Below the pieces are notes generated by a model. The model made no database searches and was not told the DNA's origin. It saw only the letters and a program-made list of their open reading frames with translations. Shown here piece after piece: positions 1 to 24,477 of a stretch of 32,483 bases of DNA. Origin of the DNA: Bacteroidota bacterium (GTDB taxonomy: Bacteria > Bacteroidota > Bacteroidia > Bacteroidales > JAAUTT01); contig JAJYAG010000063.1 of the NCBI GenBank assembly GCA_021779665.1, positions 1 to 32,483 on the forward strand, in the 5' to 3' direction. Each line of letters starts with the position of its first letter. Within the stretch, counting starts at the first letter, position 1. The translations under genes were made by a program, and so were the position numbers.

Positions 1-701
1 TCCGGGAACTTGCCCGGAAAATTCTCACCAACCCGGTCGAAATTAATATCGCCATTTCACGTCCGCCCGACAAAATAAAGCAGGAAGCGTATGTGATATA
101 CGAGTCGCAGAAAATTCCTCTTGTAAAGCATATCCTAAAGCAAAAGGATTTGAAGAGTATCCTTGTTTTTTGTTCCACAAAAATAGCTGTGAAGCAACTC
201 ACGCGCGATTTAAAGAAAGCAAATCTTCCAGCCGGCGAAATTCATTCCGATCTTGATCAGAACGATCGGGAAAAGGTGTTGCAGGAATTTAAAAACAGGA
301 GATTGAAAATTCTGGTTGCCACCGATATTCTTTCGCGCGGTATTGATATTGAAGATATAGATTTGGTTATCAATTACGATGTTCCACATGACGGAGAGGA
401 TTATGTTCATCGTATTGGACGTACTGCAAGAGCCGAATCGGACGGGGCCGCCATTACCCTCATTAACGAGAAGGAACAGAACAGGTTTTCGAGAATTGAA
501 AAGTTAATAGAGATTGAAGTTACTAAAGCTGTTGTTCCTGAAGAGTTTGGTGAAGTGCCTGCTTACAATCCCCGAACTTTCAAATCCGGCAACCGTCGGA
601 AAAATTTTAGAAAGTCAGGAGGCGGAAAACCTTTCAACAAAAACAGAAATTCCAAACCCGGCGGAGGAAACCGTCAGGGTGGTCATAAACCTGCAAATTA
701 A
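1..701 (+). CDS. DEAD-box RNA helicase, C-terminal part (5' end outside window)
   Basis: The frame is open from the first bases of the window (it begins at position 3), so the gene starts upstream; the ATG-like positions inside are not starts. About 232 residues are visible, covering the second RecA-like lobe: motif IV region (ILVFCSTKIAVKQL), motif V (VATDILSRGIDIEDIDLVIN) and the arginine-finger motif VI (YVHRIGRTARA). The protein ends in a basic tail rich in Gly, Asn, Arg and Lys, typical of RhlE/CsdA-type helicases and likely to bind RNA. These enzymes use ATP to unwind short RNA duplexes in ribosome assembly or RNA decay. The RhlE-like assignment rests on the tail and the HRIGRTARA context only; the N-terminal lobe with the DEAD box is not visible. 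Confidence 0.93.
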   Translation, partial: RELARKILTNPVEINIAISRPPDKIKQEAYVIYESQKIPLVKHILKQKDLKSILVFCSTKIAVKQLTRDLKKANLPAGEIHSDLDQNDREKVLQEFKNRRLKILVATDILSRGIDIEDIDLVINYDVPHDGEDYVHRIGRTARAESDGAAITLINEKEQNRFSRIEKLIEIEVTKAVVPEEFGEVPAYNPRTFKSGNRRKNFRKSGGGKPFNKNRNSKPGGGNRQGGHKPAN

Positions 702-800
702 TAGGATAAAGATCTGGTAAGGAATATTTTTTCAATCGGCCATTCCAAATCAGGAACCCTGATGCCGTTTGATGCATCTTCAAACCCGACTGTTATTTAG

Positions 801-849
801 CTATGGACTATGGACTATAGACTTTAATCCATGGCCTACTAACTATAAA
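801..849. repeat. Heptanucleotide array (CTATGGA unit) at the kinase stop codon
   Basis: Read in steps of seven from 801, the sequence gives CTATGGA twice, then CTATAGA, followed by decayed units that keep the phase (CTTTAAT, CCATGGC, CTACTAA, CTATAAA). The last units enter the 3' end of the minus-strand kinase gene and contain its TAG stop (839-841). One of five period-7 arrays in the window. Confidence 0.7.
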
Positions 850-2194
850 GCTGCTCCTTAATAAGCGCAAGCAATTCCTCACTATCAATAGGTTTTGTAA
901 TAAAACCATCGCCTCCTGCTTCCAGCGCTTTTTTCCTGTCCTCGTTGGAAGTATAAGCCGTTTGTACAATTATTTTAGTGTGCGGGCGCTTCAGTTTAAA
1001 TATCGGAATTGCTTCCAGTCCGCTAATGCCCGGTAATCCCAGATCCAGCAGGATGAGATCTATGCGTGTCCCTGAGTCAAAGACCGAAACAGCATCGTTT
1101 ATATTTGTAGTTTTCAGGATATTGATCTTAGTTTCGCTAAGCACTTCTTCCAGATAAATAGAATTGGTGATATCGTTTTCAATAATCAGGACAGAGTAGC
1201 CGCTAAAATCTATCGTTCCGTTGCTTTCGGCCGGATCGTTATTTTCTTTTATAGTAATTTCTTCATAAGGAATTGTAAATTTAAACCGTGTACCTTCTCC
1301 AACCTTCGATTCCAGGTTCACTGTACCTTTAAGCAGTTCAATCAGGCCTTTTACGATAGCCAGGCCCAGCCCTTTGCCCTTGAATTCATTTTCGGAATGA
1401 GGATCCAATCTGATAAACCGGTCGAAAACCAGAGGCTGCTTTTCAGGAGGAATTCCTATGCCAGTGTCGGCAACAAAAAATTCGATCTGTTTATTTTTTA
1501 TTTCAAACCCAAAACTAACCGCACCTTTATGGGTGAATTTTAACGCATTGAAAATGAGGTTAACAAATATCTGCCTTAGCTTTCCTTTGTCTACCAGGAT
1601 GTGATAAGGTTTTTCCGTGTTATTTGGTTCATACGAGATGTCGATATCCTGCTTTCCGATTTTATGTTTATGGTTATTGAAAAAAAGAAAGAGGTCGTTC
1701 AAAAGCTCATTTAAATCGCACTCCTCAGTATTGATTGTCATTTTACCGGTTTCGATGCTCGAAAGATCCAGCAGATCGTTTATCAGATCGTGGAGATCAA
1801 GCCCCTGCTGCCTGATAATGGAAGTATACTGCGCAAGTTTTTCTTTTTCTTTAAAATATTTTGGCAGTATTTCTGCAAATCCGATGATGGCATTCAGAGG
1901 TGTTCGCAGCTCGTGACTCATGTTCTGAAGAAAAATAGTTTTTAGGTGCTCACTCTCCAGGGCTCTGATTTTTTCATTTTGCAGTTCAATATTCCGAAGC
2001 TTTATTTTTTCATTTTCGAGAGCCGCTTCCCGCCCGGTTTTAAGATCGTCAACAAGCATATTAATGCCCATTGCAAGAGCGTCGAGCTTGTCGTTTTTCT
2101 CCGATGTCTCAATCTGCACCGTATAATCGCCTTTTGCTATTTTTATCACTGCTGCAATCAATTCATCAATCTTTTTTTCAGATCTTTCGTCCAT
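839..2194 (-). CDS. Soluble hybrid sensor histidine kinase with C-terminal receiver domain
   Basis: 451 residues with no membrane segment, so cytoplasmic. Order: an N-terminal HAMP-like helical segment (about 5-55), a long coiled coil (about 55-90), a HisKA dimerisation helix with H-box SHELRTPLNAIIGF (phospho-acceptor His94), and an HATPase_c domain with N-box (FVNLIFNALKFTHKG), G1 (DTGIGIPP) and G2 (GKGLGLAIVKGL). A CheY-like receiver follows, with probable phospho-acceptor Asp384 in LILLDLGLPGISG and the conserved Lys in ITKPID. There is no PAS or periplasmic sensor; input probably comes from a partner protein. The STAS-like gene 30 bp upstream is the obvious candidate and likely shares a transcript. 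No output regulator is encoded nearby. The stop codon lies inside a heptamer repeat. Confidence 0.93.
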   Translation of the reverse strand: MDERSEKKIDELIAAVIKIAKGDYTVQIETSEKNDKLDALAMGINMLVDDLKTGREAALENEKIKLRNIELQNEKIRALESEHLKTIFLQNMSHELRTPLNAIIGFAEILPKYFKEKEKLAQYTSIIRQQGLDLHDLINDLLDLSSIETGKMTINTEECDLNELLNDLFLFFNNHKHKIGKQDIDISYEPNNTEKPYHILVDKGKLRQIFVNLIFNALKFTHKGAVSFGFEIKNKQIEFFVADTGIGIPPEKQPLVFDRFIRLDPHSENEFKGKGLGLAIVKGLIELLKGTVNLESKVGEGTRFKFTIPYEEITIKENNDPAESNGTIDFSGYSVLIIENDITNSIYLEEVLSETKINILKTTNINDAVSVFDSGTRIDLILLDLGLPGISGLEAIPIFKLKRPHTKIIVQTAYTSNEDRKKALEAGGDGFITKPIDSEELLALIKEQLYS

Positions 2195-2224
2195 AGGGTG
2201 ATTATCGTTAGCTAAGTGTTTGTA

Positions 2225-2626
2225 TTATTTTTTAAGCCAAGCCATTGCATCTTCCTTATTGGTGAAGAATTCAATATTTTTCTTTCCTTTGATTCCGGTT
2301 ACAAAAGCCGCCAGAACCCTGGCGACTGGATGAATTCCATAAACGGCTACTTTATGGGTGCTTTCATGATTATTCATTTCTTCGTAAACCTGGCGGGCTT
2401 TAGGAGAACTTTTTCCAGATCGGTCAAGATTAACAAGCTGATTTATCTTTCCCGGTAATTCGGAATACAATTTTTGATACAACTTTAGTATTTCCCTTGC
2501 ATGTTCGTCAGTTTGCTCTCCGATGGCTTCAATATAAATGGTTGAATTGTCAAGAAGAGTGATCCGGTTTTCACCAATCGTAAATTCCTTTTCACTTATT
2601 TGTTTGTAACATAGTTGTGGTGCCAT
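2225..2626 (-). CDS. STAS/SpoIIAA-like small protein
   Basis: 133 residues from the ATG at 2626; a TTG two codons upstream is possible but weaker. The alternating beta-alpha pattern, with segments such as NRITLLDNSTIYIEAIGEQ, INQLVNLDRSGKSS, THKVAVYGIHPVARVLAAF and NIEFFTNKEDAMAWL, matches the STAS/SEC14-like or SpoIIAA-like family known from Bacteroidota signalling operons. Such proteins usually act through protein-protein contacts rather than catalysis. The conserved DRSGK region sits where anti-sigma-factor antagonists carry their phosphorylated Ser, so Ser phosphorylation is conceivable but not shown. It is followed after 30 bp by the soluble hybrid kinase on the same strand, which suggests that it presents a signal to, or is regulated with, that kinase. 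Fold assignment is by pattern only. Confidence 0.75.
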   Translation of the reverse strand: MAPQLCYKQISEKEFTIGENRITLLDNSTIYIEAIGEQTDEHAREILKLYQKLYSELPGKINQLVNLDRSGKSSPKARQVYEEMNNHESTHKVAVYGIHPVARVLAAFVTGIKGKKNIEFFTNKEDAMAWLKK

Positions 2627-2826
2627 TACCAATATTTTAGAAGTATAAATAGCCTAATAGTTTCACCAACTTTTTTCAAGGACCATATTGTTTACGGCAG
2701 TTGGCAAATATGGTTATGTAATATTACACGAGTAGTTTCTATGCATTTATAAATGTAATTTTTTCTGCAACGAATCCAAAATTTAAGCAGATAATATTGT
2801 ATTTATTACACTTTACGTTCAGGAGC

Positions 2827-4890
2827 TTATTTCAGATTAATTATTGCTTTAATCGTTATTATTCTTCCCGGAGATAGGTATTCTCCTGTTTCCAGATGTT
2901 GGTTATTAAATAAATCCTCGATATACATAATAGTTCTTAGCCTATCGTGAATAAACGAACGGGAAAAACTCAGGCAAGCATTAAAATAGGCGTCAATATT
3001 ACTGGTGTTGTTGTCGTTTACGAACTGCTTGCTTTTATAGAGCAAGCTAATGCTAGTATTGATAATTTTGGTTTCCCAGAAAAAGTTTCCCTTTACCTGA
3101 TGTTTGGGGCTGTAGGTAAGCTCTTTGTTTTCAAGATCGTGTCGTTTGGTAAACTCGAGAATTTTAGTCCGGTTGTAAGTATAATTTCCCGAAATTGAAA
3201 TTTTACCGTTTAGTTGGTAGTTTAAAGTGAGCTCACTTCCTAAAATATTTACCTGAGTTACATTCTCACGCCGGTAAATTGGGCGCGAATGCCACAACGA
3301 ATCTCCTGTTGCCACATAGTAAAGAAAATTGCTACCTGCCGAATAATACAAAGTTGGAGAGAAAGTAAGTTTGATGGTGGGTTTTAAATCGAATCCTATT
3401 TCAAAATTATTCAGGTTTTCGGGACCCAGATCCGGATTGGCAACCTTGGGACCTATCCACATCCACCCCGATCGGGTGAGATCGTCGAGTATCGATGCCC
3501 TGAAACCTTTTGAGTAAGACACATAGCCGCTGAAAAACTTTTTTGGATTATATCTCAGTCCTATTCTCGGACTCAGTGCAGTCCAGGTGTTTTCATGCAG
3601 GTTACCGTTGTAAACAGCGAAATCTTTTACCATTTCTCCTGTTGCTGCAAAATATCCTTCATAAAACCTGACTCTGTCGCTTCTTATCCCCACTTGAAGG
3701 TGCAGTTTATTACCCGGGAAAGTAACTTCATCCTGGAGATACATAGCCAGGGTATGCAGTTTTCCGCGGTTTAAAACCTTATCGGGGGATGTTTGATAAT
3801 GGTCGCCACCATTCACTTTACCCTTTTTAGATTCCAGTCCTGCCGTGAGAAGATTGTATTTTCCCATTCTCCGCGAAATGTTGAACAAAGCTCCAAAATC
3901 GTCGCGATCCGAAAGAACATCAAAACGCTGATATGCGCTACCTTTCATTTTTTCGTTAAGGTTGAAATAATTCTCCCTTTGAAAATAAGTGCTTAAGTTA
4001 TATTTCAGATGTCCCACTTTCCCATAAAAGGTGCTTCTTATAGTATTTGTATTGAAATGCCGGTAAACACCATCAACTGCCATAATCTTAGTTCCTTCTC
4101 CCCGTTTGTCGCGATAAAAACCATAGCTTACATCCGCATTGAAGTAGCTGTTAAGCTCATAAACAGCTCTTGCATTTATCCCGCCTTCTTTCAGATAACG
4201 GGCGGTACTATAAATGTTGGCTGGTTTCTTTCGAAGTGAATCAGGAATATTGTTGTATCCGTCGCTCGAATTGAAAAAGGCATTCAGTGAGATCCCTAAT
4301 TTCTTATTCACCTGACCCGATGTATAAAAGCCTGAATTAATAGTATTATAAGTGCCATAGGAAATATTGGCTGTCGCTTTTAATTTTTCAGCAGGCCTTT
4401 GCGTGATTACATTAATTACTCCACCCATAGCATTGCTTCCGTAGAGCGAAGACCCGGGACCTTTGAATATCTCAACTCTTTCAATATTTTCAGGGTTCAG
4501 ACTATTCCAGTTAACGCCACCTTCATCGGATGTGTTTAAAGGAATGCCGTCGAGCAGAACAAGGGTGCGGCTTTGCTCGTTTGCTGAAAAACCACGAAGG
4601 CTTACAACTGGCCGCATTGTGTAGATACCCATATTTCTGCTGACGTTTACTCCCGATGAATATTTTAGAATATCATCCACTTTCAATGCCGCTGCTCGGC
4701 TTAATTGACGTGATCCCAGAATCTCAATACGACCGGCAATTTCTTCAGGCTTTTTGTCCGACTTGGTGGCGGTAACTGTTACTTCGCTCAGATTGGTGGT
4801 GCGAAGACTATCGGAGCTGGGTTGTTGCCCCTTTATTCCGATTAAAACAAAAAGCAAGCCCAGAGAGCTGAGAAGCTTTCTTAAATGCAT
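2827..4890 (-). CDS. TonB-dependent outer-membrane receptor
   Basis: 687 residues from the ATG at 4890 (an in-frame GTG lies two codons upstream). An N-terminal signal peptide (LLSSLGLLFVLIGIKGQ) is followed by a TonB-box-like stretch (LSEVTVTATKSDKKP) and a plug domain (about 45-165: IEILGSRQLS, VDDILKYSSGVNVSR, RTLVLLDGIPLN, IERVEIFKGPGSSLYGSNAM, GGVINVITQRP). A 22-strand-type barrel ends in the expected C-terminal strand (GRIITIKAIINLK). There is no carboxypeptidase-regulatory extension, so it resembles BtuB/CirA-type receptors rather than SusC. It would import a siderophore, cobalamin or metal chelate with TonB-ExbBD energy; the substrate cannot be read from sequence. It starts 27 bp after the SUMF1-like gene and is probably co-transcribed with it. 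Confidence 0.95.
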   Translation of the reverse strand: MHLRKLLSSLGLLFVLIGIKGQQPSSDSLRTTNLSEVTVTATKSDKKPEEIAGRIEILGSRQLSRAAALKVDDILKYSSGVNVSRNMGIYTMRPVVSLRGFSANEQSRTLVLLDGIPLNTSDEGGVNWNSLNPENIERVEIFKGPGSSLYGSNAMGGVINVITQRPAEKLKATANISYGTYNTINSGFYTSGQVNKKLGISLNAFFNSSDGYNNIPDSLRKKPANIYSTARYLKEGGINARAVYELNSYFNADVSYGFYRDKRGEGTKIMAVDGVYRHFNTNTIRSTFYGKVGHLKYNLSTYFQRENYFNLNEKMKGSAYQRFDVLSDRDDFGALFNISRRMGKYNLLTAGLESKKGKVNGGDHYQTSPDKVLNRGKLHTLAMYLQDEVTFPGNKLHLQVGIRSDRVRFYEGYFAATGEMVKDFAVYNGNLHENTWTALSPRIGLRYNPKKFFSGYVSYSKGFRASILDDLTRSGWMWIGPKVANPDLGPENLNNFEIGFDLKPTIKLTFSPTLYYSAGSNFLYYVATGDSLWHSRPIYRRENVTQVNILGSELTLNYQLNGKISISGNYTYNRTKILEFTKRHDLENKELTYSPKHQVKGNFFWETKIINTSISLLYKSKQFVNDNNTSNIDAYFNACLSFSRSFIHDRLRTIMYIEDLFNNQHLETGEYLSPGRIITIKAIINLK

Positions 4891-10272: not shown

Positions 10273-11844
10273 ATGCAGAAAGTTTTCAGATATGGTCTCG
10301 ACAGGCTTAGCGCCGGGATAGCCATGGATATTTGTAATGGAGAAGTCAAAGCTTTGATTGATAGTGCTACCGCTGATAAAATAAATGCAAATCGATTGGC
10401 TGTTGAAAATATTGTGCACAAGCAGAAGATAGTTTATGGCATCAACACTGGTTTTGGGCCATTATGTACCACTATAATTTCCGAAGCAGATACAAAACAG
10501 TTACAGTATAACCTGCTTACCAGTCATAGCGTGGGAATGGGAGAGTTGCTGCCTCCCGAAGTTTCAAAAATGATGATGGTATTGAAAGTGCATGCTCTTG
10601 CAAAAGGGTTCTCGGGTGTGAACATCGAAACTCTGAACCGCATAATATGGCACATCGATAACGATGTTATTCCCTGTGTTCCCTCTCAGGGTTCTGTAGG
10701 CGCTTCAGGGGATCTGGCTCCGCTTGCGCATTTGTTTCTTCCCCTGATAGGGTTGGGTGAAGTGACTGTTAACGGTAAAAATAGTCCTTGTCAGGAAGTT
10801 CTGAAAAACTATGGGCTTTCTCCTTTAGAGCTTGGTCCCAAGGAAGGTCTTGCCCTGATTAATGGTACCCAGTTTATTGTGGCCAATGCAGTTCATTTCC
10901 TGGTACGCTTTCAAAACTGCCTCGACAATGCCGACCTGATTGCAGCCATCCACCTCGAAGCCATTCTGGGATCGGTCAAAGCTTTTGATGAAGAATTGCA
11001 TGAACTTCGGCCATACAAAGGATCGGTTTATGTGGCAAAGAGAATCAGGACTTTACTCGAGAATTCTGAAATTAATCAATCGCATAAAGATTGTACACGT
11101 GTACAGGATCCCTATTCGTTGCGCTGTATTCCTCAGGTACATGGCGCTGCCCGTAATGCTTACCTTCACCTGAAAGATATGCTCGAAACTGAGATGAATT
11201 CGGTTACCGATAATCCGATTGTCTTTAGTGAAGACAAAGCCATCAGTGGCGGCAATTTCCATGGAGAACCGGTTGCCCTGCCAATCGATTATGCAGCTCT
11301 GGCAGCTTCGGAGCTTGGAAATATTTCCGACAGGAGGATTTACCTTTCACTTGATGATAAAATTCCCGGACTTCCCAAACTTCTGATGAAAGAGACGGGT
11401 CTAAACTCAGGTTTTATGATTACCCAATATACCACGGCCGCGTTAGTGAGCGAAAACAAAAGTCTTTGCTACCCGGCAAGTGCCGATAGTATTCCAACTT
11501 CTCTCGGTCAGGAAGATCATGTGAGTATGGGTTCTATAAGTGCCCGAAAGGCTTTGAGAATTGTCGACAACCTCGAGAAAATTTTGGGTATTGAACTGTT
11601 CTGCGCGGCACAGGCGTTTGATTACCGAAAGCCTTTGAAATCGGGTGTGATTGTAGATCGTTGTCACGAACTTGTACGCAGTAAAATCACTTTTGTGGAT
11701 CACGACCGCATTCTATCCGTGGATATGAATGCTGCCACTGAAATTGTTCGCCGCAAAGAACTTGTTCAGTTAGCTAATCAACTTGCTTTATCCGAGAACA
11801 TCGATATAAAAAATGAAACGCATGAACTATTCGGAATTTATTAA
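10273..11844 (+). CDS. hutH: Histidine ammonia-lyase
   Basis: 523 residues, close to the usual 500-510. Deaminates L-histidine to urocanate, the first step of histidine degradation in the cytoplasm. The self-processing MIO triad is in [15 protein letters not shown] (Ala144-Ser145-Gly146). The catalytic Tyr is in YGINTGFG (about 55), and the substrate and MIO contact segments follow: [57 protein letters not shown]. It starts 1 bp after the MarR-GNAT gene and its 3' end overlaps hutU by 23-32 bp, so the three are one transcriptional unit. No odd features in the catalytic parts. Confidence 0.97.
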
Positions 11845-13519
11845 AACTTACGCTTCGCATCCGAAGTATTTTGCTCCACGCGGAGGTGAGCTTAATGCCC
11901 TTTCCTGGCAAACAGAGGCTCCTTTACGAATGTTCCTGAACAACCTGGATCAGGAAGTTGCTGAAAATCCCGGTGAACTTGTGGTTTACGGAGGAACTGG
12001 TCAGGCTGCCCGCAACAGGGAAGCACTTGAGAAAATAATTGAGGCTTTACTCCAACTGAAAGACGACCAGAGTTTATTAATTCAATCGGGTAAACCTGTC
12101 GGGGTGGTTCGTTCTCATCCCGAAGCTCCGCGGGTGCTCATTGCCAACAGCAACCTGGTTCCTGCCTGGGCCAACTGGGAGCATTTTGAACAGCTAAAGG
12201 CCCGGGGACTGATGATGTATGGTCAGATGACTGCCGGAAGCTGGATTTACATCGGCACACAGGGTATTCTGCAAGGCACTTACGAAACTTTTGCTGCCTG
12301 CGGAGATAAATACTTTGGCGGGTCGCTCCGGAACAAACTATTGGTATCCGGTGGCCTTGGAGGTATGGGCGGTGCTCAGCCGCTGGCTGCTACCATGGCC
12401 GGTGCGGCTTTTTTAGGTGTGGATGTCGATGCAACCCGCATTCAGAAGCGTCTGGATACAGGTTACATTGATATTATGACTTCCAATTACGAAGAGGCTT
12501 TGAAGATCGTGCTTACGGCTAAGCAGAGAGGCGAAGCGGTTTCGGTGGGATTGGTTGGTAACATTGGCGATGTGCTTTACCGCTTGTTGCAGGATAATAT
12601 TATTCCGGATGTTTTAACTGATCAAACATCGGCGCACGATCCTGTGAATGGTTATGTTCCTGCCGGAATGCCGCTTGAAGAAGCAAAAAACCTGCGGGTT
12701 GCTAATCCTGCACATTATAAAGAACTTTCACTTAAAAGTATGGCCCGCCATGTGGGTTATATGCTCGAAATGCAGAAACGCGGAGCCGTTACTTTCGATT
12801 ATGGAAACAATTTGAGGGAATTTGCCCGTCAGGGTGGCGAAAAGAATGCTTTCGACTTCAAAGGCTTTGTACCTGAGTTTATCCGTCCGCTGTTTTGCGA
12901 AGGGAAAGGGCCTTTTCGCTGGGTAGCACTTTCGGGCGACCCGGAAGATATTTATACAACTGATCAGGCCCTGATTGATGCTTTCCCCGAAAACCGGCAC
13001 ATGATTCACTGGTTGCGGGAAGCTCAAAAGAAAGTTCATTTCCAGGGATTGCCAGCTCGTATCTGTTGGCTGGGAATGGGAGAGCGCGAAAAAGCCGGCG
13101 TGATTTTTAATGACCTGGTAAGATCGGGAAAAGTAAAAGCTCCGATCGTGATTGGCCGCGACCATCTCGATTGCGGTTCGGTTGCTTCACCCAACCGGGA
13201 GACTGAAGGTATGAAAGATGGCAGCGATGCGGTGTCCGACTGGCCATTACTCAATCTCATGTCGAACGCCAGTGGTGGTGCTACATGGATCTCATTTCAT
13301 CATGGCGGCGGAGTTGGTATAGGTTACTCTCAGCATGCCGGCATGGTAGTGGTAGCAGATGGAACCGAACGGGCTGAACGTTGTATCCGCAGGGTGTTGT
13401 ACAACGATCCTGCCATGGGTATTTTCCGCCATGCTGATGCAGGGTATGAAGAGGCGGAAAGAATAAGCCAATCGTTGATTATCTCACCCCCATCTCCTCT
13501 CCCAAATGGAGAGGGGTGA
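11822..13519 (+). CDS. hutU: Urocanate hydratase, C-terminal tail derived from an inserted repeat
   Basis: 565 residues from the ATG at 11822 (another in-frame ATG lies at 11813). Hydrates urocanate to 4-imidazolone-5-propionate using tightly bound NAD+. Visible hallmarks: [32 protein letters not shown], the Rossmann-like [37 protein letters not shown] and [17 protein letters not shown]. The start overlaps the end of hutH. The last residues, [12 protein letters not shown], are not urocanase sequence: from 13483 on the coding DNA is the 154-bp repeat, and translation ends on a stop inside it. The natural C-terminus therefore seems to have been replaced after [14 protein letters not shown]; the catalytic core is intact and the enzyme is probably active. 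Confidence 0.97.
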
Positions 13520-13636
13520 CGCTCTCAACAAGAGGTTGCATCATATTTTAAAGTAATAGAAATCAATAGTTATGGTAAAGACAATCATGAACGAGGTGCA
13601 GTTCCCTCTCTTTGAGGAGAGGGTTAGGGTGAGGTG
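13483..13636. repeat. 154-bp direct repeat, left copy, with two CCTCTCC palindromes
   Basis: This copy matches 14049-14202 over its full length with only 7 differences and no gap. Each copy begins CTCACCCCCAT, has a hairpin of the type CCTCTCC...GGAGAGG near each end, and closes GGGTTAGGGTGAGGTG. The central 85 bp are AT-rich and not palindromic. The outermost parts of each copy are themselves roughly inverted (CTCACCC at the start, GGGTGAG at the end). Confidence 0.95.
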
Positions 13637-13657
13637 AAAAATGTAAATAATAGTTTT

Positions 13658-14047
13658 ATGATAAAACCTTTAAAAAGACCGGATTTCGAGCTTCATATAG
13701 GAGCTGGAAAAATGACGTTTAATCATGCTATGGAATTAAGAAAGAATTTGACACCAGCAGAAGATAAATTATGGGACGCCCTAAGGAACCGGAGACTTTG
13801 TGGGTTTAAATTCAGAAGGCAGCATCCTCTTAAACAGTTTATTGCTGATTTTTATTGCCATGAAAAGAAACTGGTAATTGAGCTTGATGGTGAAATTCAT
13901 CAAAAACAAGAGATTTCAGAATATGATGAAGGTCGTACATTTGAGCTGGAAAAATTTGGCTTAACTGTTCTTCGTTTCAAAAATGAAGAGGTTTTAAGAA
14001 GTTTTGACAAGGTTTTGGATATGATCAAGACAGCTTTGGGATTATGA
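13658..14047 (+). CDS. DUF559 (Vsr-like, PD-(D/E)XK fold) endonuclease domain protein
   Basis: 129 residues from the ATG at 13658; a GTG at 13634 lies in the repeat and is less likely. The DUF559 pattern is clear: RKNLTPAEDKLWDALRNRRL, GFKFRRQHPLKQFIADFYC, LVIELDGEIHQKQ, and the end GLTVLRFKNEEVL. The Asp in IADFY and the Glu in VIELDG fit the nuclease active site of the Vsr/PD-(D/E)XK fold. Its biological role is not established; it may be a homing-type or repair nuclease. It sits in the middle of the hut operon on the same strand, enclosed by 154-bp direct repeats, and has no metabolic link to histidine. Probably acquired. Confidence 0.9.
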   Translation: MIKPLKRPDFELHIGAGKMTFNHAMELRKNLTPAEDKLWDALRNRRLCGFKFRRQHPLKQFIADFYCHEKKLVIELDGEIHQKQEISEYDEGRTFELEKFGLTVLRFKNEEVLRSFDKVLDMIKTALGL

Positions 14048-14048
14048 C

Positions 14049-14202
14049 CTCACCCCCATCCCCTCTCCTAAAAGGAGAGGGGTGCCGCGCTCAACAAGAG
14101 GTTGCAGCATATTTTAAAGTAATAGAAATCAATAGTTATGGTAAAGACAATCATGAACGAGGTGCAGTTCCCTCTCCTTGAGGAGAGGGTTAGGGTGAGG
14201 TG
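14049..14202. repeat. 154-bp direct repeat, right copy
   Basis: About 95 percent identical to 13483-13636 and in the same orientation. It begins 1 bp after the DUF559 stop codon. The differences cluster in the first 60 bp, around the first hairpin, while the central AT-rich part is nearly unchanged. The remaining 97 bp up to hutI hold no recognisable feature. Confidence 0.95.
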
Positions 14203-14299
14203 CAGAAAAGAAGCCGGGCTTTAAAGTTTTTGATTGTCAGAATTAAGAATATGAAAATCATTCTTCTGAGTAGAAAAGTATACTTTAATGGAATAAAAT

Positions 14300-15613
14300 A
14301 TGGGTGTAAATTTCAATAATCATTCATCCGATTCACACGGGGAAGCGAATACAGGTCTTCTCATCGGTCCCTTCCGGCAGCTCCTCACAATGAACAATCT
14401 TCCTGAAAAAGGCAAGATTGCCGACGAACAGCTTGAAATAATCCAGGATGCGGGAATAATTACCGTAAATGGATTAATCTCCAGAATCGGCTTATATTCA
14501 CACCTGGAGGATGAGGCACAGCAGAATGGCTTTGGTTTCGATTTTCTGAATGGCGATTACGTTGCTATGCCGGGTATGATTGATGTGCATACGCATATTT
14601 GTTATGGAGGTAGTCGGGCTGGTGATTATGCCATGCGGCTGTCGGGCAAAACCTACCTGGAGATTGCCTCTATGGGCGGGGGAATATGGAGTACTGTTCA
14701 GAAAACAAGACAGGCTTCGAACGAAACATTGCTGCATGCTTTGTTGAAAAGGCTTGAAATATTGCTTTCGGAAGGGATTACAACTGTTGAAGTGAAGAGC
14801 GGATATGGTTTGAACATAAATGATGAACTCCGTATGCTGGAAGTGATTCAAAACTCGGATTCATTGCTGCCCATCGATGTTGTTCCTACCTGTCTCGCCG
14901 CTCACATGAAACCAAAAGATTTCAACGGAACGAACCTGCAATACCTCGAATTAATTGTGGATAAATTGCTTCCGGCAGTCAAAAGCAGGAATCTTTCAAA
15001 CCGCGTGGATATTTTTATTGAAAAAAGTGCTTTTACAACTGATGAAGGTTTATTTTACCTGAGAAAAGCCAAAGAGATAGGCTTTGATGTTACTGTTCAT
15101 GCCGACCAGTTTACTGCAGGCGGATCTGAAGTTGCCTGCCTGGAAGGGGCTCTTTCGGCCGATCATTTGGAAGCGTCGGGAGAAAAGGAAATCAGCATAG
15201 TGGCTCAAAGTAATACAGTCGCGGTTTGCTTGCCTGGTGCATCCCTGGGATTGGGAATGCAATTTGCTCCTGCCAGGAAGTTACTCGATGCAGGAGCCTC
15301 CGTAGCTATAGCCTCTGATTGGAATCCGGGTTCAGCACCCATGGGCGATTTGCTGATGCAGGCAGCTGTGCTGGGCGCCTACGAACACTTGAGCCTTGCC
15401 GAGACTTTGGCAGCTATTACCACAAGGGCTGCCAAAGCCTTGAACCTGACTGATCGTGGAAGTATTAGTAAAGGTAAACTTGCCGACATCATTGCTTTCC
15501 CAACGCACGATTACCGGGAAATTCTTTACAGGCAGGGAAAATTGAAACCCGCAGCTGTCTGGAAAAGGGGAAAGAGAATGCCTCTCCCTGGCCCTCTCCA
15601 AGGGAGTGTATAG
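14300..15613 (+). CDS. hutI: Imidazolonepropionase, C-terminal tail derived from repeat
   Basis: 437 residues, slightly long (about 405-420 is usual). Hydrolyses imidazolone-5-propionate to N-formimino-L-glutamate. An amidohydrolase barrel with metal ligands in DVHTHICYGGSRAGDY (HxH), the His in VTVHADQFTAGGSE, and the Asp in ASDWNPGSAP; TTVEVKSGYGL is another family signature. The first 18 residues (MGVNFNNHSSDSHGEANT) have no counterpart I recognise, but no later Met keeps the first beta strand (LLIGPFRQLLT), so the 14300 start stands. The natural end appears to be near AAVWKRGK; the remaining RMPLPGPLQGSV is coded by a CCTCTCC-type palindrome (15581-15606), as in HutU. ftcD follows after 95 bp. 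Confidence 0.96.
   Translation: MGVNFNNHSSDSHGEANTGLLIGPFRQLLTMNNLPEKGKIADEQLEIIQDAGIITVNGLISRIGLYSHLEDEAQQNGFGFDFLNGDYVAMPGMIDVHTHICYGGSRAGDYAMRLSGKTYLEIASMGGGIWSTVQKTRQASNETLLHALLKRLEILLSEGITTVEVKSGYGLNINDELRMLEVIQNSDSLLPIDVVPTCLAAHMKPKDFNGTNLQYLELIVDKLLPAVKSRNLSNRVDIFIEKSAFTTDEGLFYLRKAKEIGFDVTVHADQFTAGGSEVACLEGALSADHLEASGEKEISIVAQSNTVAVCLPGASLGLGMQFAPARKLLDAGASVAIASDWNPGSAPMGDLLMQAAVLGAYEHLSLAETLAAITTRAAKALNLTDRGSISKGKLADIIAFPTHDYREILYRQGKLKPAAVWKRGKRMPLPGPLQGSV
15581..15606. repeat. CCTCTCC-type palindromic repeat forming the hutI 3' end
   Basis: CCTCTCCCTGG followed by CCCTCTCCAAGGGAG. On the minus strand it aligns with the right end of the 154-bp repeat (GGAGAGGG, two bases, AGGG-GAGG), so it appears to be a short member of the same family in the opposite orientation. 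Confidence 0.6.
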
Positions 15614-24352: not shown

Positions 24353-24397
24353 AACTAAAAATAAACTTACATTTTACTTAGTTAAGTTAAATTCTTC

Positions 24398-24441
24398 GTT
24401 CTCCTTTCGTTCTCCTTTCGTTGTTCCTTCGTTCAGATTTC
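24398..24441. repeat. Tandem 11-bp repeat between convergent genes
   Basis: Four units in phase: GTTCTCCTTTC twice, GTTGTTCCTTC and GTTCAGATTTC. The pyrimidine-rich strand is the plus strand. It lies in the 125-bp gap between two convergent genes. Confidence 0.75.
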
Positions 24442-24477
24442 TTTCGAAGTTGGAGCGACAAATGGAAGAAAGATGCT

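Follow-up and report, generated by a model that had tools for sequence, protein, structure and literature searches.

A DUF559 gene bracketed by two direct repeats lies between hutU and hutI in a contig of a Bacteroidota bacterium (JAJYAG010000063.1, assembly GCA_021779665.1), whose whole 32,483-nt stretch is called the window below. We consider it likely that DUF559 nucleases mobilise triplex hairpins, by cutting and movement that we infer, and that the unit in the window is one copy of a widespread mobile family. By analogy, the family is best read as resembling REPINs and their RAYT transposases, but with a nuclease of the EDxHD/Vsr fold, and a DUF559-type nuclease may be the long-missing spreader of triplex-hairpin repeats. 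A more tentative proposal, to which we would give slightly less than an even chance, is that these units represent a new class of bacterial element with DNA-triplex ends, mobilised by an EDxHD/Vsr-fold nuclease.

A mobile nuclease-repeat unit had been proposed before from the window alone, and this idea is well supported by hutU–hutI junctions that are empty in relatives, by further copies and by occurrence in other phyla. No paper joining DUF559 to these repeats was found in the open PubMed Central literature.

The DUF559 unit in the hut operon

The two repeats (13483-13636 and 14049-14202) are identical at 147 of 154 positions, a recount that gave the same figure as the sequence-only reading, and the extended pair (13478-13641 and 14044-14207) is identical at 153 of 164; none of 20,000 random 154-nt pairs from within the window had 80 or more identities. 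CCTCTC..GAGAGG hairpins lie close to both ends of each repeat, and the A+T content is 69% in 13530-13600, inside the left repeat, in agreement with the CCTCTCC palindromes and AT-rich centre described in that reading. The repeats bracket an open reading frame of 137 amino acids from a GTG (13634-14047), which matches the DUF559 family PF04480 with E 5e-38 and 129.8 bits (curated cut-off 20.6 bits). An in-frame ATG at 13658 aligns with a start in the second DUF559 copy of the genome and is the probable start of the gene.

The hutU frame terminates inside the left repeat, which supplies its final codons and stop (both hut names come from the earlier reading and from inspection of the proteins by eye). 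In two genomes of the same genus (G002 and G003) hutU adjoins hutI, and the junctions read without the nuclease gene and without such a repeat; a HutI match was absent from the other two genomes of the genus that were searched. The frames that are neighbours in these relatives are here split by the unit, as had been claimed, hutU ending at 13519 and hutI beginning at 14300. Since two relatives lack the unit at this place, it was either added to the operon or lost in both, and, judged from the sequences, insertion is the simpler option. The repeat-coded C-terminus of HutU (window 13483-13519) differs from the tails in two relatives that were read. The features of the locus are:

11813..13519, plus strand: hutU frame, 3' end inside the left repeat
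13478..13641, plus strand: left two-hairpin repeat, carrying the last hutU codons and stop; 153/164 identical to the right copy
13496..13516, no strand given: hairpin 1 of the left repeat, CCTCTCC..GGAGAGG, with outer block CTCACCCC
13604..13636, no strand given: hairpin 2 of the left repeat and outer mirror block, GGAGAGGG-TTA-GGGTGAGG, lettered as in the type-A triplex motif (type after PMC4666352)
13634..14047, plus strand: DUF559 nuclease gene, 137 amino acids from GTG, probable start at ATG 13658
14044..14207, plus strand: right two-hairpin repeat
14060..14080, no strand given: hairpin 1 of the right repeat, forming the C-rich end together with CCTCACCCCCAT
14170..14202, no strand given: hairpin 2 of the right repeat and outer mirror block, GGAGAGGG-TTA-GGGTGAGG
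14300..15613, plus strand: hutI frame, adjoining hutU in two relatives of the same genus

Repeat architecture

Each repeat in the window joins a C-rich end (CCTCACCCC..CCTCTCC-loop-GGAGAGG) to an inverted second end, GGAGAGGG-TTA-GGGTGAGG. By its letters, it is a two-hairpin element whose ends are built like BoxC, an intrastrand-triplex motif. PMC4666352 describes such a triplex motif, previously named BoxC or PIT, in which a pyrimidine arm is followed by a purine arm and a mirror purine block, with a TTA loop in type A and a CCG loop in type B. Close inverted pairs in E. coli are stated there always to join the second-loop TTA type with the CCG type, and triplex formation by the E. coli motif in vitro is reported.

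The likeness to this motif (BoxC/PIT/TMECO) lies in the purine core GGAGAGGG-TTA-GGGTGAGG at the two right ends in the window, in the inverted pairing of two end types and in the occurrence in many bacteria. A first difference is that loops vary here: the left ends in the window read GAT (reverse complement ATC), and in 12 solo elements of the same genome the loop was exactly TTA in three, ATTTA or ACTTA in seven and another sequence in two, with CCG on the C-rich end in five. Secondly, the pairs described here bracket or contain DUF559, whereas PMC4666352 reports no mobility genes, transposase or integrase remnants never having been seen in the gene contexts of the motif. Thirdly, relatives of the element occur in frame within genes, whereas that paper describes the E. 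coli motif as always intergenic.

In Rfam, neither the window stretch nor any of 20 loci had a match above a gathering score. Below threshold, whalefall-1 (gathering score 37) was matched at the right half-elements 14168-14202 and 13602-13636, with 24.4 and 18.9 bits, and likewise in solo elements of the same genome.

Copies in the same genome

The earlier suggestion to look for the repeat elsewhere in the genome (6.9 Mb in 305 contigs) yielded 19 places by blastn. A covariance model of one end, for which 16 ends of this genome were used, detected at least 111 half-elements. All half-element counts given here are lower bounds, with up to 150 candidates scored per genome in this genome and in the genus of genome G279, and up to 24 in each of 295 genomes of the class. 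Many half-elements are arranged in pairs, which make up solo elements 105-166 bp long. Neither of the outcomes named beforehand as speaking against a mobile unit, a DUF559 gene with diverged repeats at the hut site in all relatives or a repeat found nowhere else, was seen.

Four DUF559 genes were found in this genome, all of them flanked by repeats, three by the window type. Besides the window copy, the gene in contig C162 lies between two copies of the window repeat type, that in C136 lies inside one single element, and that in C57 is flanked by a different hairpin type; in C109, two repeats enclose an apparent DUF559 gene tail. The flanking repeats are 93, 89 and 82.5% identical within pairs and 63.5-80.3% identical between different pairs, so that the margin is small for C162, where the two kinds of identity lie close. 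No target duplication above chance was seen at the edges of solo elements of this genome (12 and 17 solos), the direct repeats within 60 nt of the ends of 17 solos having a mean of 6.2, compared to 6.1 after shuffling. In contig C19 (locus L236), C-rich repeat ends form a row with a spacing of about 226 bp, and one element is flanked by a 17-nt direct repeat.

Hairpins at DUF559 loci

We assembled 113 DUF559 loci: four from this genome, 29 from the class and 80 from genome contigs, the latter being the best 80 of 368 relatives listed and leaning towards the kin of the window. Flanking inverted or direct repeats exceeded the 99th percentile of controls at 74 of the 108 loci that could be used (the rest had short flanks), compared with 9 of 437 control windows. 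Strict hairpins were present on both sides at 64 of the 113 loci, compared with 7 of 388 control windows. A pyrimidine arm followed by a purine arm was found in 209 of 241 flank hairpins, but in only 32 of 131 control hairpins, and a mirror block, as the third strand of a triplex needs, accompanied 149 of those 209, where three were expected after shuffling of the neighbourhood. At 18 loci with one such hairpin per side, the mirror block lay outside at 30 of the 36 ends, inside at one and on neither side at five.

When a pyrimidine/purine hairpin and a mirror block were required jointly, 42 of the 113 loci had them on both sides, 32 on one side and 39 on none (388 controls: 1, 13 and 374). For 40 further PF04480 loci, picked by hand from the listed matches of the class outside the first set, the corresponding numbers were 16, 11 and 13 (78 controls: 0, 8 and 70). 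Among 15 plasmid, phage and E. coli loci (two of them ycjD), scored by a more lenient hairpin rule and without a control, 13 had pyrimidine/purine hairpins within 350 bp, eight of these with a mirror block of at least 0.85. The pairing of DUF559 with hairpins thus recurs in other phyla with unlike hairpin sequences, in line with the earlier remark that DUF559 genes are often found amid such repeats elsewhere; Sinorhizobium K101 has the solo-gene-solo plan of the window. DUF559 relatives were found in 2 of 50,697 phage records, and a PF04480 search of 14 control genomes gave matches in two, Caulobacter and C. glutamicum.

Half-element numbers followed the presence of DUF559, both in the class and inside one genus. 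Among the 295 class genomes, 139 had DUF559 and 105 the end motif: 82 had both, 57 DUF559 only, 23 the motif only and 133 neither (odds ratio 8.3, p 1.3e-15, uncorrected for kinship). With at least five motif hits required, the numbers were 58, 81, 9 and 147. In the 36 genomes of the G279 genus, the 31 with DUF559 held 0-84 half-elements, some of which are the ends of DUF559 elements themselves, and the five without it held 0, 0, 0, 1 and 9 (Mann-Whitney p 0.0016; Spearman correlation of counts 0.41). In genome G123, a 33-nt left end is identical in a DUF559 element within the leucyl-tRNA synthetase (LeuRS) gene and in 11 of 15 solo elements, which had been chosen among high-scoring, alike hits; the second DUF559 copy of G123 has another loop, which recurs at one end of one solo.

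The DUF559 protein

The AlphaFold2 model of the window protein (mean pLDDT 85) matched PDB 3hrl, an endonuclease-like protein of N. gonorrhoeae (E 4e-8), as well as 3r3p, the catalytic domain of homing endonuclease I-Bth0305I (E 4e-4, TM-score 0.74 by target length), and the predicted fold is of the EDxHD/Vsr type. Residues T40, W47, Q63, D72, F73, E83, D85, G86, H89, D98, R114 and N117 (window numbering) are invariant in 52 aligned rows, and of these D72, E83, D85 and H89 are candidate active-site residues. The protein is under purifying selection, with a ratio of nonsynonymous to synonymous substitution rates (dN/dS) of 0.20 between the window and C162 copies. There was no sign of an HUH Y1 transposase: Pfam gave only PF04480 and, below the cut-off, MTES_1575 REase, and the structures matched were 3hrl and 3r3p. 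PADLOC gave weak matches only, the best being the C57 protein with a homing endonuclease model (E 5e-5).

In-frame copies and empty sites

Open frames of more than 250 codons hold 53 of the 113 DUF559 loci (one of these, L096, is partly masked). The host genes, named from reading translations by eye, were LeuRS (14), MetH (10), RecQ (5), DNA methylase (5) and HsdR (4), with IleRS, HisF and TrpA among the single cases. In many loci the in-frame hairpins translate as peptides such as LTPNPSPKERG. The RecQ cases are five Hymenobacter loci (L094, L099, L107, L125 and L126), where DUF559 stands in frame before an apparent RecQ. In locus L119 of Candidatus Brocadia (open frame 428-4270), DUF559 lies inside an apparent intein.

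Occupied and empty forms coexist among close relatives. At the LeuRS point, G123 has 631 nt, compared with 85, 85, 94, 85 and 85 nt in five aligned sister species. A MetH query matched 34 genomes of the G279 genus, in which the gene was whole in 23 and split in 11. The split genes contained DUF559 in nine cases, a shortened (internally deleted) DUF559 in L190 and a solo hairpin in L192, and some of the whole genes carried short hairpins or remnants.

Such fixed points could also be explained by homing, although we consider this unlikely. A free-standing DUF559 nuclease would cut the empty allele at one site and be copied in by repair, with the hairpins being palindromes that invade or shield the element and the solos being spread by other means. 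The presence/absence polymorphism at the LeuRS and MetH points fits such a process, as do the predicted match to the fold of I-Bth0305I, the apparent Brocadia intein and the five RecQ-site nucleases, which grouped as a single clade in all 200 bootstrap trees. However, solos with the same ends are present at scores of unrelated places, and a single clade of LeuRS-site nucleases was rejected (approximately unbiased test, p 0.007). Because these nucleases do not form one clade, the LeuRS point was probably filled more than once. The MetH site has two hairpin types within one genus; one origin there was seen in 0 of 200 bootstrap trees but, with p 0.106, may still apply. The clade tests used 43 rows from a 109-locus set, 33 of the in-frame clade and 10 others, with L135 omitted as identical to L074.

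Tandem arrangements were found in two genomes: G116 has a repeat-gene-repeat-gene array, and in G118 only 567 nt separate two DUF559 copies. A candidate for a recent jump of a full element in G116 was rejected, the long match (629 nt, 94%, offset 560) having arisen by duplication in tandem. Because of the tandem arrays and the alike repeats within pairs, recombination between direct repeats seems to remodel the units after insertion.

ycjD in E. coli

In E. coli K-12, ycjD, annotated as DUF559, lies between sapF and fabI, and the ycjD stretch was matched in 3365 of 5426 E. coli genomes, at a median of one place per genome. Downstream of ycjD, in the interval before fabI, there is a type-A motif. 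Table 1 of PMC4666352 lists 23 K-12 motifs, with no. 9 at 1,351 kb; the letters downstream of ycjD equal those of no. 9, and a record of K-12 size puts ycjD at 1,351 kb. Because the letters are equal and the positions close, the two are probably the same site.

A clean empty site for ycjD in E. coli was rejected, since an efflux operon occupied the place in the three ycjD-less strains that were opened. At L259 and L261-L263, the sapF–fabI interval contained ycjD or, in those three strains, the efflux operon, which includes a TetR-family gene. Two E. coli strains (L264 and L260) have a broken ycjD, shortened by a small deletion in one and interrupted by IS1 in the other.

Proposed mechanism and alternatives

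The mechanism that we propose starts from elements whose ends would be intrastrand-triplex hairpins, each built of a pyrimidine and a purine arm plus a mirror block on the outer side. In its basic form, an element would consist of left hairpin, nuclease and right hairpin, as in C136 and the LeuRS and MetH copies; gene loss would leave solo two-hairpin elements of 105-166 bp, and the window copy would be a solo-gene-solo form, its flanking repeats being near-copies of each other. The nuclease would recognise the hairpin or triplex when extruded on DNA that is single-stranded or supercoiled, and nick or cut at the outer edge of the hairpin. Through excision or repair, copies that contain or lack the gene would then reach new sites, AT-rich ones or protein linkers, presumably without target duplication. 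The nuclease would thus act in trans on solo copies, as RAYT transposases probably do on REPINs, and recombination between direct repeats would subsequently delete or tandemly amplify the gene-plus-repeat unit. Solos could instead be empty targets that were filled later by the nuclease, but the intermediates found look like deletions. Because the DUF559 tail in C109 and the internal deletion in L190 resemble states of decay, the sequences point rather to solos derived from fuller elements.

Several observations weigh against mobilisation by DUF559. Triplex hairpins were present on neither side at 39 of the 113 and 13 of the 40 DUF559 loci, and P. aeruginosa and Synechocystis B12, two of the 15 plasmid, phage and E. 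coli loci, lacked even a lenient pyrimidine/purine hairpin. K-12 ycjD carries the motif on one side only. The modelled motif was missing from 57 of the 139 class genomes with DUF559, and 23 of the 105 genomes with the motif had no DUF559; other hairpin families may account for part of this. Nuclease distance and hairpin likeness were weakly correlated (rho -0.15, 1 of 1000 permutations as low; 87 loci with hairpins present and no stop). Of 11 DUF559 matches in G116, nine copies on eight stretches were compared, and most were far apart in sequence, so that recent jumps of full elements look rare there. Finally, some G123 solos lie inside a conventional miniature inverted-repeat transposable element (MITE) whose terminal repeat measures 14 nt and which has direct repeats of 9-10 bp on its outside. 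Since the latter resemble a target duplication, these MITE-borne solos were probably spread by a DDE-type transposase. The outer terminal repeat, ATCCCTAAGATTAT (13-14 nt), was read at L319, L324, L325 and L360, with a two-hairpin unit inside, and direct repeats of 9-10 nt lie further out at L317, L319 and L324.

The MITE-borne solos suggest a quite unlikely explanation for the units in general, in which the repeats are ordinary MITEs of an unrelated DDE transposase, and a DUF559 gene caught between two of them is retained through direct-repeat recombination. The likeness of the repeats within each pair is also what duplication after capture would give. This is hard to reconcile with the own-genome solos, which show no direct repeat above chance, with the gene lying inside a single element in C136 and the MetH copies, with the association of DUF559 with unlike hairpin sequences in several phyla and with purifying selection on the protein. 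It is very unlikely that DUF559 serves the host as a structure-specific nuclease that processes stalled hairpins or triplexes and limits their instability since, although the protein is under purifying selection, ycjD is common and mostly at one place in E. coli, and PMC4666352 links triplex-motif loci to instability, the genes are patchy even within a genus and inserted in essential genes such as LeuRS, unlike a housekeeping gene.

Mobilisation of triplex hairpins by DUF559 nucleases would, if true, explain how BoxC/triplex repeats spread in hundreds of genomes, E. coli K-12 with its ycjD included, and why essential enzymes, leucyl-tRNA synthetase among them, have received in-frame insertions repeatedly. 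Short palindromic repeats would then have a further kind of mover, a nuclease that belongs to neither the HUH nor the DDE enzymes, and nuclease domains would have been accepted time after time inside essential enzymes. The pairing of motif and gene suggests a candidate function for DUF559 that is directly testable in E. coli K-12.

Relation to known systems

REPINs are short, two-hairpin palindromic elements present in many copies, with ends tagged by GTAG, and the small nuclease gene of the system is flanked by them; RAYT transposases probably act in trans on REPINs. The family described here is similar in its two inverted palindromes, in their number (at least 111 half-elements), in a small, flanked nuclease gene and in the lack of target duplication at 17 own-genome solos (some G123 solos differ in this respect). 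It differs in the predicted PD-(D/E)XK/Vsr-type fold of the nuclease, where RAYT is an HUH enzyme, and in its CCTCACC triplex-motif ends.

With EDxHD/Vsr homing endonucleases such as I-Bth0305I, the DUF559 proteins share the predicted fold and the coexistence of occupied and empty alleles among sister species. Unlike them, the elements have hairpin ends and scores of solos at unrelated places. No intron or intein splicing parts were noticed by eye at the window or the LeuRS and MetH copies; only L119 resembles an intein.

Rickettsia palindromic elements are palindromes of about 150 bp, some of them in frame in protein genes, according to PMC10969869. Set side by side by description, the LeuRS and MetH relatives are likewise in frame, whereas the window copy extends HutU by no more than a tail. 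The main text of that paper does not contain the word "endonuclease".

Elsewhere in the window, 24395-24445 contains a short tandem array with an 11-nt unit, TTCGTTCTCCT.

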